Source: Halichondria panicea (lineage: Eukaryota > Porifera > Demospongiae > Suberitida > Halichondriidae). From it: 64,000 bases of DNA. The DNA lies in NCBI RefSeq assembly GCF_963675165.1, contig NC_087382.1, forward strand, positions 6,806,315 to 6,870,314, in the 5' to 3' direction. Of this stretch, positions 43,971 through 51,070 are shown in pieces (within the stretch, counting starts at the first letter, position 1; the number at the start of each line of letters is the position of its first letter). The translations under genes and the position numbers were made by a program. The notes beneath the pieces were generated by a model. It did not search any database. It saw only the letters and a program-made list of their open reading frames with translations, and was not told the DNA's origin.

Positions 43971-44072
43971 CAGCCTCATCACATCAGCCTCATCACATGG
44001 GAAGGCTTCACAGTGAACTCCGAAGATGGCGACTGTGAGGACGAACACTGGGCCGGGTTGTAGTGGATTACT

Positions 44073-44245
44073 TATGGAGCGCCAAAGTGGACAAAAATAT
44101 CGACGATTGATAGGCCAAGATCGTGAGTACATAATCGATCCAAAAGTGGGCGCGGTCATACATTTTTGATGATCGAAAAATATCAACAATGGATAGGCCA
44201 AGATCGTTAGTACATAATCGATCCAAAAGTGGGCCGCCCATACAT
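44073..44245 (+). repeat. Left terminal region with two subrepeats
   Basis: Two copies of a unit with 'gataggccaagatcgt.agtacataatcgatccaaaagtggg', separated by 'catacatttttgat'. Inverted relative to 50806-51064. Confidence 0.9.
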
Positions 44246-44365
44246 TTTTGATAGTTTGATAATGCCGCGCCAATTGATATTCGATCTACATGCAACCTGT
44301 GTGATGATTTAGTCTATTATCGACCTCTCAATCGTAGACATTGTGTTTGATATTCAAGAAGGTGT

Positions 44366-44515
44366 TAGCCTCGAGACCACGTCTTATTTCAATCGGCGTG
44401 GTCTCGAGGCTAAGAACGTGTCAGCCTAGCCTCGATTCAAGGCCTAGTAAAATCAGCACTTTCTACTGAAGACCACGCCCTTTCTATGAGACTATGCTAT
44501 GTAAAGGGCGTGGTC
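44366..44515. repeat. Two short perfect hairpins
   Basis: 44366-44381 (tagcctcgagaccacg) pairs with 44397-44412. 44471-44483 (gaccacgcccttt) pairs with 44503-44515. Both contain a 'gaccacg' arm. They lie inside the transposon, upstream of the integrase gene. Confidence 0.8.
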
Positions 44516-45243
44516 TCTACTCTAGTTCTCACCTACAATAATAGCAGCTATTTTCTTTGCCAAGATCAAGAGCATGATAAGTGAGCCAAGCTGATTAATT
44601 CGATTGAGGGAGGGCATAGAGTATTAAGGTACTATAATTATTTGGTACTGTTTTATTAATCTTTAGTTTAGTAGGCTAACACAACCGTTTTCTACTTTGT
44701 TCGTTTGTTCTTGTAAGTATAAAAGAGTCATGGTGTAAGGTTGAGGATCTTCTCAAAGTCATAGGTAGCCTAACAGAATGACGTGTATGCGTATGTATTT
44801 ATATTGTGGGGAAAGGACGTCCCTCCCCAAACTGGACGTGAGCTATTGTATGCATATACCTACCTAGAATATTAAACTTTGTAATGCTTTACAATGTAAT
44901 GAAGGCTAATGAACTTGTCAATCTAATTCCCCCTCGATTAGACCAATCACATGATATAATACCCCTACCTTTGGGCATGTTATTTGGTTTAATCCCCCTA
45001 GTACAACATGGGGGTTATGTGGGGAATAGACCTATCACTACGTATAGCGAGAAGATAACAAATACAGAATCACTATATAAATATTGACAGCTATACTCTT
45101 ATAAAGCAAAAAGGCAGAGATTGCTTAGGATTAATAAACTGCTCTCACTGTACTCAGCATGTGTTGGAAGGATGAGTATGGCATGTGATCTTTTGACCCA
45201 ATGCATGCATCAGGTGATCTGTCTAAGTCCCCTAGGTAGGGAC

Positions 45244-45388
45244 AGAGGAGGTCCGACATGCGTGCACGAATCACTACAAGTTCAGTGCATTACAAGTTCA
45301 GTGCATTTGGCCTGGACATTATCACGTGACCGCAATGATATCAATGTACTGAACTTGTAGTGATTCGTGCATGTCAGACCTCCTCTGA
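45244..45388. repeat. Imperfect inverted repeat upstream of the integrase
   Basis: Arms of about 45 bp (45244-45289 and 45344-45388) share 'acgaatcactacaagttcag', with a 16-bp duplication in the loop side. It could be a foldback insertion or a regulatory palindrome. Confidence 0.8.
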
Positions 45389-45473
45389 GGTAGGGGAGCA
45401 ACTTCAAGTCTAATCCCCAACTAATCCCCACCTGGGGGAGGTGGGGCATTACTTTTACAAGTGCACAAATAAG

Positions 45474-45483
45474 TCTATAAAGA
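45474..45483 (+). promoter_or_regulatory. Possible TATA box of the integrase gene
   Basis: 'tctataaaga' lies about 35 bp before the ATG at 45517. The spacing would give a very short leader. Suggestive only. Confidence 0.35.
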
Positions 45484-45516
45484 CACACCCTCACTGTTAG
45501 GTACCATTTTCCTCAC

Positions 45517-47042
45517 ATGGCGATTTCTTTCCTTAGAATGTCAGCTTCTGAGATGATTGACTTCTTGCTTGAGGCTGAAGATACTATTACGAGAACAAAC
45601 ATGATGATACTTGAAGGTGATTTAACTGTTGTCGAAGATGCACTTTGTACTGCTGAGATGGTCCTTGGAGATATTCTGAGTGCTGAAGATTTGTTACCTT
45701 TTGGAAGTGGAGAAATATTAGTTGAACATGTGAGAAACATAGTTGTGTGTATTAATGAGGTGATTGATGATGAACACCGTTGTCACATTAGGGGACGACC
45801 ACAAATACCAATTAGTGAAGAAAGCCTTATTTTGCTGCTAAAAGCTCATTTTTCAACTACAGCCATTGGGAAAATGTTAGGCGTTTCATCTCGTACAATA
45901 AGGAGAAGAATAGTTCAATACGGAATGCAAGATGAGATAACATTCTCAGGGTTGAGCGACTCTGAGCTTGATGATATTACAACAAATTTTATCAGGACGC
46001 ATCCTAATTCTGGAGAACGATCACTAAGTGGCTTTTTGTGGAGTATAGGTATTCGGATCCAGCGCGCAAGAGTCAGGGAAAGTCTGAAGAGAATTGATCC
46101 CATTGGTGTGGCTTCACGCTTCCGGCAAGTTCTCCACCGGCGAAAATATAATGTATGCATGCCAAACAGCCTCTGGCACATAGACGGTTATCATAGGCTC
46201 ATTAAATGGCGTATTGTCATACATGGAGGCATTGACGGCTACTCCCGACTCCCTGTATATATGAAAGCTTCCACAAACAACAGGGCAGAGACAGTTTTAG
46301 ACAGTTTTTTGAGTGCAGTTCATGAGTATGGTCTACCCTCTAGAGTCCGAAGTGACAAGGGAGGAGAAAATGTGCTGGTGTCTCAGTTTATGCTTGATCA
46401 TCCAGAACGTGGGCCCGGACGTAAAAGTTTTATTACAGGACGGAGTGTCCACAATCAACGAATTGAGAGGTTGTGGAGGGACCTATTCACAGGATGCATA
46501 TCACTCTACTACGAGGTGTTCTCCTCCTTACAAGAAGATGGATTGTTGGACCCTCTGTGCAATACAGACCTGTTTTCCTTGCATTACATATATATCCCCC
46601 GAATCAACAGCCATTTGGATGAATTTCGCCAATCGTATGCTCATCATCGTTTAAGAACTGAGAAGAATCAGACTCCATACCAGTTGTGGACGAAAGGATT
46701 GTTACAAGGGTCAGGTGATGCTGCTGCTATACAAGGTGTTGCAAGTGATACATTGGTAAGAGTACAATGTAATTGTTTTGGGTGTTAGAGTGTTAGTTAT
46801 TAATGTTTTCTTCAGTGTTATCACAATGTGATTTATTGTAGGAATATTTTGGAATTGACTGGGAAGGTCCCGTCACTGTGTCTGATGATCTTGATCGTGT
46901 CACTATTCCTGAGACTAGGAATTGCATAAGTAGAGAGCAGCACATTGAGCTAGCACATGCTGTTGATCCTCTTGAAACCTGTGATGATCTTGGGATATCT
47001 TTGTATATTATCACTCGGGCTTATGTTGAAGCATGTCAGTGA
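45517..47042 (+). CDS. IS3-like DDE integrase-type transposase
   Basis: Exon 1 is 45517-46755 and exon 2 is 46842-47042, with a phase-0 GT-AG intron of 86 bp; 479 residues. The N-terminal helical region (about 1-105) is followed by a helix-turn-helix (about 108-145: STTAIGKMLGVSSRTIRRRI). An rve-type core has SLWHIDGYHRLIKW (first Asp), RVRSDKGGENVLV (second Asp) and SVHNQRIERLWRDLF (Glu). The C-terminal exon (EYFGIDWEGPVTV onward) is poorly known but keeps the frame. No stop, frameshift or microduplication was seen, in contrast to most coding sequence here. The start is the first ATG after the putative TATA box. It would catalyse end cleavage and strand transfer of the element. High confidence in type, lower in exact subfamily. 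Confidence 0.9.
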
Positions 47043-47215
47043 CTGTAATTAATTTATATATAGCTAGTGTTTTAGTGTTTATATTTGTTTTGTCATGTGA
47101 TGCTGAATAAATTAATTTTGGCTACATATTAATTAATTTATATATAGCTAGTGTTTTAGTGTTTATATTTGTTTTGTCATGTGATATTGAATAAATTAAT
47201 TTTGTTAACTTGTTA
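47043..47215. repeat. About 83-bp tandem duplication in the integrase 3' flank
   Basis: The block beginning 'aattaatttatatatagcta' occurs twice in direct succession, with a two-base difference (gatgctg / gatattg). Each copy has an AATAAA, so it may duplicate the polyadenylation signal. Confidence 0.9.
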
Positions 47216-47380
47216 TTAGAATCAATCATATAAGGTATATACCATATATTTGACGAAAGTGATGAGGCACAAAAGTGATTACATATGTGATGCCAAAATT
47301 AAACTGTCATGGTAGTAATGAATGTGAATCGAAAAAACACTGATAGCTGATTATATCTGAAAAATACACGAATGTTAGTG

Positions 47381-50300
47381 TTAGCACATTCCAAAACCTC
47401 CATGGTTTAGTATTCCATACTCCATGTTTTCTTTAAACCGGAGTTCATCATCATGAAACTTGGTTGGCAATGTTAATTGCAATGCACATGTTGAGGCCAA
47501 GGGATAGTTTGAAGTGGAGCTGAAGTGAATACTCACAGGGTTTCGACTATCAAAGCCCAAAACAGGTGGGTAGTCACTGCCAGTGAAGAAGTTTAGAACC
47601 TGACCTAGGCTCAACCCTGACTCGCTGCCTCCATCTGCATAAATCGGGGGGAAGCCGTTTAGTGTAGCATGATTTTTAATCTAATTACCTATTACCTTGT
47701 ATGTTATGCAACATATCCAAAAAAAGCATATACGACGCTTTCTCTTTGACTAATTCAGAAGTTCCAGATTCTGAAAAATGCACGTCACCTATCAGAGACC
47801 TAATCATATCTGAACAAAATAAAATGGAGGTAACAAACAAATTAAGAGGGATGCCAACCTACTTGCTGAAAGAGGTGGTTGCATTCCTTCAACAAAGAAT
47901 GGTTTTAGAATCTCACTGTACTTGGACATGGCCTCCCTCATCCCTAGAATGTTGAGCCCAGCTCGCAACTGGTCCAGAACTGCTTTGTTTCGGTACACAA
48001 CGAAGTGGAGCAATAGTGCTTTTACAAGCCCAGGTTTCTCTGACATGGTGATGGAAGCAATGGGTTTGGTGTACCCAGCTTCAAGTGCAGTGTCGATATC
48101 ACTCTGACAAGTCTGTCTAAGGCTTTCATTACATTCAGCTGCCTCGATCTTAAAAAGAAATCATGCAGTTATACATTATTTTTTAATAATGATAAGGTGT
48201 TCACCTGAGAGATATATTCCTTGACTTCGTAAGCCGGAACATCCTCCACACTGACATTCACCGATTCTGCACTCACGCCACATAAGTACTCGTATATCGG
48301 AGGTGCAATGAATGGAACACCACTGCTGCCTTGGAGTAACCCCATAGCAATCAAATTGCCAACATGTTCAAATTTCTTGTTCTAGAATAGCATAATTATA
48401 ATGGAGGCAAATCTATACATAAGAATAGTGAACCTGCAGTGCAACAACATCATGCCTTGGCACCAGGCGATCTCCAACCCCCTCAAACAAAGATGACTTC
48501 ACTTGCTTAAACAGGAGACACCAAAACTCCCGTTTTAAACCACCCCCATCTTCACCTGCCTCCCCAAGAAACTCCACCTATATTACAGTAACACATGCAA
48601 TCAATTATAGTGGCCAATGTAAAGTACCTTCTTACAATGATAGTGTGGTCGATTGGAAAAGAACCACGCCTAACGGTGCGTAAAGCATCGTCGAGAACAT
48701 TTTCCCGTCTCACAGTTACAGTCACTTCTTCACCTGTCACATACTTGGAGAGAGACTTCAGAAGGTCTGCTATTGTTGCAATTGATTCAGAACTGAATAG
48801 GGCATTCATTTAATCTCAACTACAACCAACTTGCGTAAATTACCTGTTGTTCTTAGAGAGAGAAATTGCACGGTCTATCATCTCTTGCTCGGTTTGTTCA
48901 ACCTGTAGTAAAAGATATCATCAAAAATCTAGTAAATGTATACACTTCCCACTTACATCATTGTCAGACTCAGAAGAAATTGAAATAAGGGGCTCTGATG
49001 TTGGCTTCTTCGGTGGGGGGGAAGTGTCATCACTATCCCAATGAAGTTCTCGTTTCAAGCTGTAAAGCAATTAATGACATTGTTAAATCATCATTAATTT
49101 TTGTAAAGTATCAACCTCAAAGGAGGCCTTCTTGGTGGAACAGGGTCTTCAAAGTCGTCTGAATCACTGTCTGATTCGAGTCCACGGCTCAGACTAATTA
49201 CAGTATAATTATACATAATTATAATTGATTAATGGCAAGTACCTTGACTTCTTCCACTTGCAAATGTTAACGTGAGCACGTAGGTCAACCACTGGCACTT
49301 TAATGTCACAGTGTAAACACTTCTCCTTTAGCTATTAGAGATAGATAATTATACATGTAGCCAACTAGCTGAAGGTGCATGTTCTGTATTTTACCTCATT
49401 AGAGTTTCCTGCTATAGGATTGACATCTAAGCTTTTTTGAATGGGTCGGATGAATACCCGGCCATTGCCAATGACGCTCTTTAGTACCTTGGGAGATGCT
49501 GCAATTACTGGTGAAATTAATTCCAGATCTTTAGTATTTGGAACACATCGAAGCAGCTCGAACCCTCCACACCCATTCAACTTGGAGAATGATGAGATTA
49601 TGATTTCGTTGAAGTCCTTTGCAGAGCATTCTATGTCTGGGATTACTGTCTTTTTTTCTCCTAACCCAGCACTGACAAGCACATTTCGGTCATACACACT
49701 GCAGGGTACTTTTTTTGCTTCTGTACTGCTGAGACAGACTAACTTCACAGTCCAACTCTTGTGTTTCGTTGAACTCTTTCTCTCATATGGGGCAAAGTTT
49801 GCCTTCTGCTCGGATGTTCCCCCTTGGAGTCGTTCCTTCTTGGAGTCGTTCCCTAACGGAACGAAGGGCTTCTACGGCTCTGCTGCATGACCCACTGGCA
49901 CCATGCCTCACACCTAATGGATCATTATTAGTAAGATTGTGTATGCACTAATTATATAGCACCACTCTCAATTTATTCTACTCTTGATTATACCAAAATT
50001 TATTTGTCCAATGGCCATACCGTATAAGCTCTTTTTATGGCGCCACATTAAAATAATTACGCTGGTAAAGGTGGCTCTATTATGAGGTTGGAAAATTAGT
50101 TTCGAGTCTTTAGAAGAGCGCCTTCTAATTGGAGGTAAAAAAACAGCTTTGCAAATGGACTGTGCATGTGCATGGCACCTGCAGCAGTTTTCTTGTTCTT
50201 CCAACAGGCCTGTGCGTACGTTGCACACGTTAAAGAGGCACTGTGTGGCCCAAATGTGGAAGGAAGAATTCTGTGATTGGCTTGCTCATTTTACCTCTAT

Positions 50301-50724
50301 TTACCAATGCACCGTCAAAAAATAATTACTCACACGTGGTGGAGCTCCATTAGGAGTTTCAAAAATTACTTTGGAGGCTTCATGGCGCATCTTTAGAGGG
50401 GCGCTTTAAAAAATGCTTATATGGTATTAATGTGATACTTATTTTCACACAATCACACATCACTCTAGCTCAATAAAGATGTGCCTTATAATTAGCACCA
50501 TGTTAGCACGTACGTACTTATAGCTTAGTATAGTACAGAGTACAAAAGATCTACAGAGAACTCCATAAACTCAAGCTAGCTAGCTGCACTTAACACTTAC
50601 CATGCTGTGAAGGCGTTGACAATGAAGTGGATGTACTGGGTGTAGTGCTCTCAGCCGAGCTCTCAGCCGAGCTCTCAGCAATAGATGCGAGAAGCTTAAT
50701 AGCCTGCTTGACCTTGTCCTCCAT
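47381..50724 (-). CDS. HECT-type E3 ubiquitin ligase carried by the transposon
   Basis: Twelve exons on minus: 50724-50601, 49852-49395, 49331-49243, 49193-49116, 49059-48957, 48902-48844, 48792-48636, 48577-48434, 48381-48205, 48148-47859, 47799-47696, 47634-47381. All introns are GT-AG; the sum is 2,037 nt, 678 residues, no break. The exon 1/2 acceptor is the least certain. Features: a Ser/Thr-rich start with a 12-bp in-frame duplication; a SWTVKLVCLSS... domain; a C2HC-type finger (KCLHCDIKVPVVDLRAHVNIC); an acidic linker; a ubiquitin-interacting-type motif (EQEMIDRAISLS); a HECT N-lobe (VEFLGEAGEDGGGLKREFW); and a C-lobe with PLASTCALQLTLP, including the thioester Cys. It probably transfers ubiquitin. 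The target and the benefit to the transposon are unknown. Confidence 0.88.
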
Positions 50725-50805
50725 ATTACTTGCTACACAACACGTGGTCATTTGCTAACACGCATGCGCCAGTAATAATCACCCCAGCGCCACCGCAGCA
50801 AAAAT

Positions 50806-51064
50806 GTATGGCCGCGCCCACTTTTGGATCGATTATTATGTACTAACGATCTTGGCCTATCCATCGTCGATATTTTTCGATCATCAAATATGTATGACCG
50901 CGCCCACTTTTGGATCGATTATGTACTAACGATCTTGGCCTATCCATTGTCGATATTTTTCGATCATCAAAAATGTATGACCGCGCCCACTTTTGGATCG
51001 ATTTATGTACTCACGATCTTGGCCTATCAATTGTCGATATTTTTGTCCACTTTGGCGCTCCATA
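50806..51064 (-). repeat. Right terminal region with three subrepeats
   Basis: Three roughly 85-bp units, each with 'gcgcccacttttggatcgat' and 'acgatcttggcctatc', ending in the terminal inverted repeat. One unit more than the left end. Confidence 0.9.
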
Positions 51065-51070
51065 ATTACT

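Follow-up and report, generated by a model that had tools for sequence, protein, structure and literature searches.

The window analysed here is a stretch of 64,000 nucleotides from the genome of the sponge Halichondria panicea (NCBI RefSeq assembly GCF_963675165.1, contig NC_087382.1, positions 6,806,315 to 6,870,314, forward strand). Our subject is a 7.0-kb transposon within it, at positions 44073..51064, in which two genes were modelled: an integrase-type transposase and a gene of the HECT ubiquitin ligase type (Table 1). The element opens with TATGGAG and closes with CTCCATA. Its terminal inverted repeats are 96% identical over 182 aligned columns, and subterminal units of ~83 bp occur twice at the left end and three times at the right. 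The transposase lies on the plus strand in two exons and the HECT gene on the minus strand in 12 exons, from 50751 down to 47381, with all 11 introns bounded by GT and AG. An initial annotation of this locus had described inverted ends, a perfect 6-bp target duplication and two spliced genes facing each other; this anatomy was confirmed, and the element's coordinates were exact to the base. The same annotation took both genes to be unbroken and the ligase to be intact, which holds for the transposase and fails for the HECT gene. Exon 2 of the window copy lacks 14 bp that are present in the six other gene-bearing copies, and the resulting frameshift leads to a stop at codon 94, as judged with an exon model whose frame stays open in copies C7 and C1a. 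A shortened HECT product may be made from the window copy by way of another splice site.

The window transposase has 479 amino acids without internal stops, and its catalytic triad consists of D223, D280 and E317, with 36 residues separating the last two. Besides rva_4 (Table 1), Pfam reported rve just under its cut-off of 32.6 bits (32.4 bits; E 1.1e-7) and weak helix-turn-helix matches at residues 102-138, and gave no match to an OTU or Ulp1 domain. A search of solved structures returned a single match (E 1.6) and no transposase relative, and the predicted structure, with a mean predicted local distance difference test score (pLDDT) of 48, was not used. Viral contigs held 49 and 15 pattern matches to the transposase and to the exon-2 domain of the HECT gene, respectively, none of which was confirmed as a relative.

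Judged by its domain and catalytic cysteine, the second gene is predicted to encode an E3 ubiquitin ligase of the HECT class. The protein of copy C7, which belongs to the window's family (F1), has 714 amino acids, and its HECT domain scores 39.7 bits against the Pfam curated cut-off of 23.9; the corresponding scores in families F3 and F4 are 39.4 and 49 bits. Solved HECT domains matched both lobes, HUWE1 over residues 350-534 (E 2.6e-8) and UBE3C over residues 642-711 (E 3.1e-4). The TC cysteine of the C-lobe was found in all nine HECT sequences read; TC served among the filters for picking C-lobes, and all nine were also placed by model, hidden Markov model or position. Five of the nine end in FG plus two residues.

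Upstream of the HECT domain, a C2HC finger was present in all seven models, drawn from four families, and its pattern arose 0, 0 and 8 times when three of these sequences were each shuffled 5000 times. We take this finger to resemble the UBZ4-type ubiquitin-binding finger. Pfam reported zf_C2HC_14 at 0.0061 in F4 and XAF1_C at 0.08 for the F3 finger, and a scan of the F1 protein matched neither a C2HC finger nor a ubiquitin-interacting motif (UIM). The domain encoded by exon 2 has no match in Pfam. Its structure, modelled from six sequences, reached a pLDDT of at least 90 at 93 of 176 residues (mean 76), and its best Foldseek matches were mostly ubiquitin-like folds (the USP7 Ubl, Ras-binding, UBX, FERM and PB1 domains); it is probably, though not provenly, a beta-grasp. 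Identity of this domain to the window family is 41-48% in F2 and F4 and 32% in F3, which places it among the better conserved parts of the ligase. Outside the window family, an integrase adjoins it at 10 of the 11 listed loci, all ten with a convergent partner; at two of the ten, the nearer integrase is on the same strand. The eleventh locus lies 7 kb from an integrase, in divergent orientation.

Table 1. Positions of the features of the element in the window, and of related loci elsewhere in the genome
Feature	Position	Strand	Description
Target site duplication, left	44067..44072	.	ATTACT, perfect 6 bp
Left terminal inverted repeat	44073..44252	+	TATGGAG terminus; ~83-bp internal repeats
Transposase exon 1	45517..46755	+	Helix-turn-helix-like N-terminal part and DDE core; Pfam rva_4 PF24764, E 1.9e-83
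Transposase exon 2	46842..47042	+	Runs to the stop codon
HECT exon 12	47381..47634	-	C-lobe, TC catalytic-type cysteine, GFG C-terminus
HECT exons 11 to 7	47696-47809, 47863-48148, 48205-48381, 48434-48577, 48636-48792	-	HECT N-lobe
HECT exon 6	48844..48902	-	UIM-like motif, by eye in the window family
HECT exons 5 and 4	48957-49059, 49116-49193	-	Acidic linker
HECT exon 3	49243..49331	-	C2HC zinc finger, CxxC-x11-HxxxC
HECT exon 2	49395..49913	-	Conserved domain, probably beta-grasp; frameshifted in the window copy
HECT exon 1	50601..50751	-	Includes the start codon
Right terminal inverted repeat	50796..51064	-	Three ~83-bp units; CTCCATA terminus
Target site duplication, right	51065..51070	.	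ATTACT
Copies with the nested insert	G000:C2:2778152-2791644; G000:C1:8641118-8655131		
Same-strand HECT-like loci	G000:C4:2654326, C4:3499349, C15:5971502, C7:4194422		
Facing integrase pairs	C13:4273596/4280723, C1:8835049/8842779, C16:4429680/4446124, C8:780886/796354, C1:4126672/4153216		

Copies of the element and their movement

The coupling of the two genes that had been noticed in the window recurs in the other copies of the element. The genome (131 Mb in 39 contigs) gave ten Wnt matches at about four loci, as expected of an animal. A search of it yielded seven gene-bearing copies, the window included, all of which hold both gene regions; the other six are 98.4-99.5% identical to the window. 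Among the copies of these ends, none was seen to hold the integrase and lack the HECT region. Locus L017, an end fragment, matches over no more than the initial ~840 bp plus the end repeats. Copy C1c lacks its left 724 bp, and the six copies that retain both ends all carry TATGGAG..CTCCATA, each flanked by a different duplication: ATTACT, TTATTC, TGTATC, AAGGAT, CTGACT and the 7-bp CATACTA, the first five being 6 bp long. Four full copies differ at only about ten substitution columns across 7 kb, which indicates recent movement. The element is best read as a recently active DNA transposon, probably of the cut-and-paste kind.

Two copies, C2 and C1b, show in addition how a copy can move with its ligase gene broken. 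They share a ~6.35-kb insertion in HECT exon 1 that is 99.8% identical between them, and their outer 6-bp duplications differ, so this derivative moved after its HECT gene had been broken. It follows that transposition does not require the HECT gene in cis, and the idea that a copy spreads only with an intact ligase of its own was not borne out. The insert resembles a DNA transposon in its own right: its ends are inverted over ~60 bp, it has an 8-bp duplication, which is one base longer in C1b, and it has been carried along inside its host element.

Two further features of the element were observed. A tandem pair of 84-bp units (92%) occupies window positions 47046-47213, in the spacer where the two genes meet tail to tail, and strong short hairpins occur 5' of the transposase (45243-45387, 44365-44413 and 44470-44516), one of them with 29-nt arms at 97%. 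The hairpins may represent a small inverted-repeat element nested here, or a structure with a regulatory role.

Conservation and genome-wide linkage of the pair

The transposase and the HECT gene are kept together in eight families, between which the identity of the transposase core is 46-67%. Six elements of F2, F3 and F4 were delimited, and all have TATGGA..TCCATA ends; their duplications are perfect in five, with a length of 6 bp in four and of 7 bp in one, and imperfect in the sixth. In the spliced models, both F3 copies are free of stops in both genes, as is the F4 HECT gene, and the HECT genes of the F2 copies contain stops. Sizes of exons recur as well: F1, F2_C7 and F3_C1y share an exon 8 of 144 bp, and their exon 9 measures 177, 177 and 180 bp, respectively. 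The exon ends in F2-F4 come from our own spliced aligner and are approximate; the model of the F4 transposase is fragmented, and the boundaries modelled in F3_C1x and F3_C1y, which are 97% identical, partly differ (exon 8 of 169 versus 144 bp).

Between families, synonymous change is saturated. The HECT protein shows a dN of 0.61-0.87 and 29-41% amino acid identity, and the transposase a dN of 0.46-0.63 and 44-53% identity. The distances of transposase and HECT C-lobe correlate over the eight families (Mantel r 0.53), with 129 of 40320 permutations giving a value as high, which fits co-inheritance more than repeated capture. Since families this divergent keep the HECT gene, mostly in convergent orientation, we infer with considerable confidence that the ligase counts among the element's own conserved components and is not cargo caught once. 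The initial annotation had supposed that the ligase is under selection, and over the long term this is supported, as distant families retain the pair, its orientation and the catalytic cysteine. The comparison of the ratio of nonsynonymous to synonymous change (dN/dS) between copies, which it had proposed as a check, was run and had no power, with about ten substitution columns among four copies.

To quantify the linkage of the two genes, we compared their positions across the genome. A search with the transposase protein gave 95 genome matches, many at 43-54% identity; the corresponding search for HECT found 100 matches to exons. Integrase loci (114) were merged from Pfam rva_4 matches, of which 150 of 156 were listed. 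The HECT set combined all 95 entries of a further HECT search, 35 of the 100 exon matches (the other 65 belonged to the window family or overlapped these 95 entries and were dropped) and 30 genome matches of a diverged C-lobe exon, with two pieces of one exon joined. This diverged exon was found next to a seemingly unpaired integrase, and its Pfam HECT match (0.0044; 17.1 bits) is below the cut-off. The transposase, HECT exon and rva_4 searches score only the best candidates, and loci are therefore undercounted.

A HECT or HECT-like locus lies within 8 kb of 66 of the 114 integrase loci, against ~1.3 expected; 59 of these pairs are convergent, seven are on the same strand and none is divergent. 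Without the diverged C-lobe matches, 41 loci are paired against ~0.9 expected (37 convergent, four on the same strand, none divergent). Viewed from the other side, 63 of the 93 listed HECT or HECT-like loci have an integrase within 8 kb. The expected numbers assume random genome-wide placement, and members of one family cannot be treated as independent, which gives more weight to the count of families. Among 23 loci of diverged sequence inspected individually (L025-L047), the opposite strand holds a HECT C-lobe downstream of the integrase in 20, in the case of L037 only once the stretch read was extended; at L038 there is just an N-terminal HECT part, on its own strand.

Some arrangements depart from the common one. 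Four loci of one family carry a HECT-like exon downstream on the same strand, unlike the convergent majority, at a near-constant spacing of 2987-2990 bp. Integrases of one group come in pairs that face each other at distances of ~6 to 26 kb. L054 (G000:C9:2872800-2882400) is among them; over 1975 bp its halves show 99.8% identity, and each holds an integrase and a HECT C-lobe exon. The facing pairs may be larger elements whose long inverted ends contain both genes. Long open integrases of the element's kind are found at L033 with L055 (G000:C10:3897674-3906500) and at L036 with L056 (G000:C6:2971800-2981099).

Classification and possible roles of the ligase

IS3EU and GingerRoot elements have TA..TA termini and usually 6-bp duplications (PMC10045372). 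The ends and duplications of our element fit this type, to which it is provisionally assigned from that description; an integrase-type DDE transposase is likewise common to both. They may differ in the ligase: the words "ubiquitin" and "hect" occur 0 times in the main text of PMC10045372. IS3EU and GingerRoot also lack an HHCC motif before the core; in that part of our transposase, Pfam gives only weak helix-turn-helix matches. IS481EU, with duplications of ~4, 15 or 25 bp and TNT..AYA ends (PMC10045372), is ruled out by the 6-7-bp duplications alone, since TAT..ATA ends would fit TNT..AYA. Ginger1, with a 4-bp duplication (PMC10045372), is ruled out on the same grounds and also by the lack of a Pfam OTU or Ulp1 match on the transposase. 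The authors of Ginger1 proposed in 2010 that the ubiquitin pathway may play a role in transposition (PMC2836005), and in both systems an integrase-like transposase is linked with the ubiquitin/SUMO system. There the link is an OTU or Ulp1 protease domain on the transposase, and here it is a separate, convergent gene for a predicted ligase.

Accessory genes as such are familiar from Kolobok, whose lineages are marked by KolX, exonucleases, RecQ and a His-Me nuclease, with an accessory gene on the complementary strand in Kolobok-1_CCri (PMC9587614). None of the accessories named there is a ubiquitin ligase, and Kolobok is another superfamily, with TTAA targets. Compared with host HECT ligases (HUWE1, UBE3A, UBE3C and G2E3-like proteins), the transposon protein is similar in its HUWE1-like N-lobe, its UBE3C-like C-lobe end and its catalytic cysteine, and differs in its exon-2 domain, which mostly adjoins integrases. 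Polintons, or Mavericks, are large elements with a DNA polymerase B and virus-like genes; a 6-bp duplication would suit them, and a length of 7.0 kb with two genes does not, although no search aimed at a polymerase was made. Similar proteins are, we presume, those labelled G2E3-like in fish annotations. The sole printed hint that we found is the listing of G2E3 among the blastx matches of unclassified fish repeats (PMC5638112). A coupling of HECT with DNA transposons was not found in the titles and beginnings of abstracts of the papers listed, which for four queries were the first 20 of 6832, 30 of 5092, 25 of 1868 and 40 of 53; Repbase and the GingerRoot paper lay outside that search, and HECT may be described there.

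Taken as a whole, the sequence evidence leads us to favour, with a probability of about 0.6, an IS3EU/GingerRoot-type transposon with a conserved ligase that would act in trans and aid transposition. On the observed anatomy, the transposase would act on the TATGGAG termini with their repeated ~83-bp subterminal units and would generate the 6-bp duplications. The ligase would serve the element in trans; it might read ubiquitin marks and ubiquitinate a host protein met during transposition, perhaps most plausibly at the break or in the chromatin of an excision or insertion site, and this might help the cell to survive or the insertion to be completed. Among possible roles of the ligase, we would rank action at the transposition site or in repair above degradation of a silencing factor, and the latter above control of the transposase; the first place is given to the site or repair because the ligase seems to read as well as write ubiquitin.

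Several observations weigh against this reading. The HECT gene is open in only two of the seven copies (C7 and C1a) and broken in five, by one extra homopolymer base in C5 (which may be an assembly error), a stop in C1c, the insertion and a lost base in C2 and C1b, and the window deletion. The transposase is open in six and broken in one, so that HECT is lost more readily in cis. Within the older families, dN/dS ranges from 0.19 to 3.22, with one value undefined, on 5 to 14 substitutions, and reveals no constraint. At 48 of the 114 integrase loci these searches found no HECT within 8 kb, and downstream of the long open integrases L033 and L036 none was seen in the 5-6 kb inspected; these two are possibly HECT-free elements or domesticated genes. 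As for ubiquitin reading, support for the UIM is weak (Pfam E 0.12 in F4, and no match in the two other families scanned), and none of the Foldseek matches of the exon-2 domain has an E-value of 0.001 or below. Finally, all of the evidence comes from one genome.

The breakage of HECT in five of seven copies of one family, together with a dN/dS not significantly below 1 in any of six within-family comparisons, is what one would see if the gene were a host gene captured by chance and carried as a useless passenger. We give this explanation very little credence, as the cysteine, the finger, the exon sizes and the convergence recur across families despite saturated synonymous change, too long for a passenger, and 59 convergent pairs stand against no divergent one. 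The ligase might instead regulate the element itself by ubiquitinating the transposase, thereby limiting or timing its amount. The correlated distances of the two proteins are compatible with such co-evolving partners, but plain co-inheritance gives the same correlation, and in four of the seven gene-bearing copies (window, C5, C1b and C1c) the ligase was lost and the transposase kept without visible runaway growth, which makes this role improbable.

A third possibility is counter-defence, in which the ligase would mark a host silencing factor for degradation, such as a component of a small-RNA pathway, a chromatin repressor or a zinc-finger repressor, and so allow expression of the element. 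The ligase diverges faster than the transposase (29-41% versus 44-53% identity) with its cysteine kept, as if tracking changing targets, and copies with a broken HECT gene moved, as expected for an antagonist acting in trans. However, the relatively good conservation of the exon-2 domain speaks for a partner that stays the same, and the finger and the UIM-like motif are better understood as devices for reading ubiquitin; on balance we regard counter-defence as rather unlikely. Returning to a transposon whose conserved ligase aids transposition, a broader claim can be made only tentatively, and we hold it at somewhat less than even odds: that a two-gene module, of a transposase and a convergent ligase that both writes and reads ubiquitin, defines a whole branch of the IS3EU/GingerRoot type, with the first long-conserved ubiquitin ligase of a DNA transposon, whose action in trans would enable transposition or escape from silencing.

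Ubiquitin or SUMO proteases have been described before in transposons; a ligase is the opposite enzyme, kept here across many families. Its substrate would reveal a host protein that these elements need changed. Ligases of transposons could also explain the many near-identical HECT genes that have been counted as host ligases in some animal genomes. The conservation of the pair suggests that ubiquitin-based control of host proteins belongs to the way of life of these elements.

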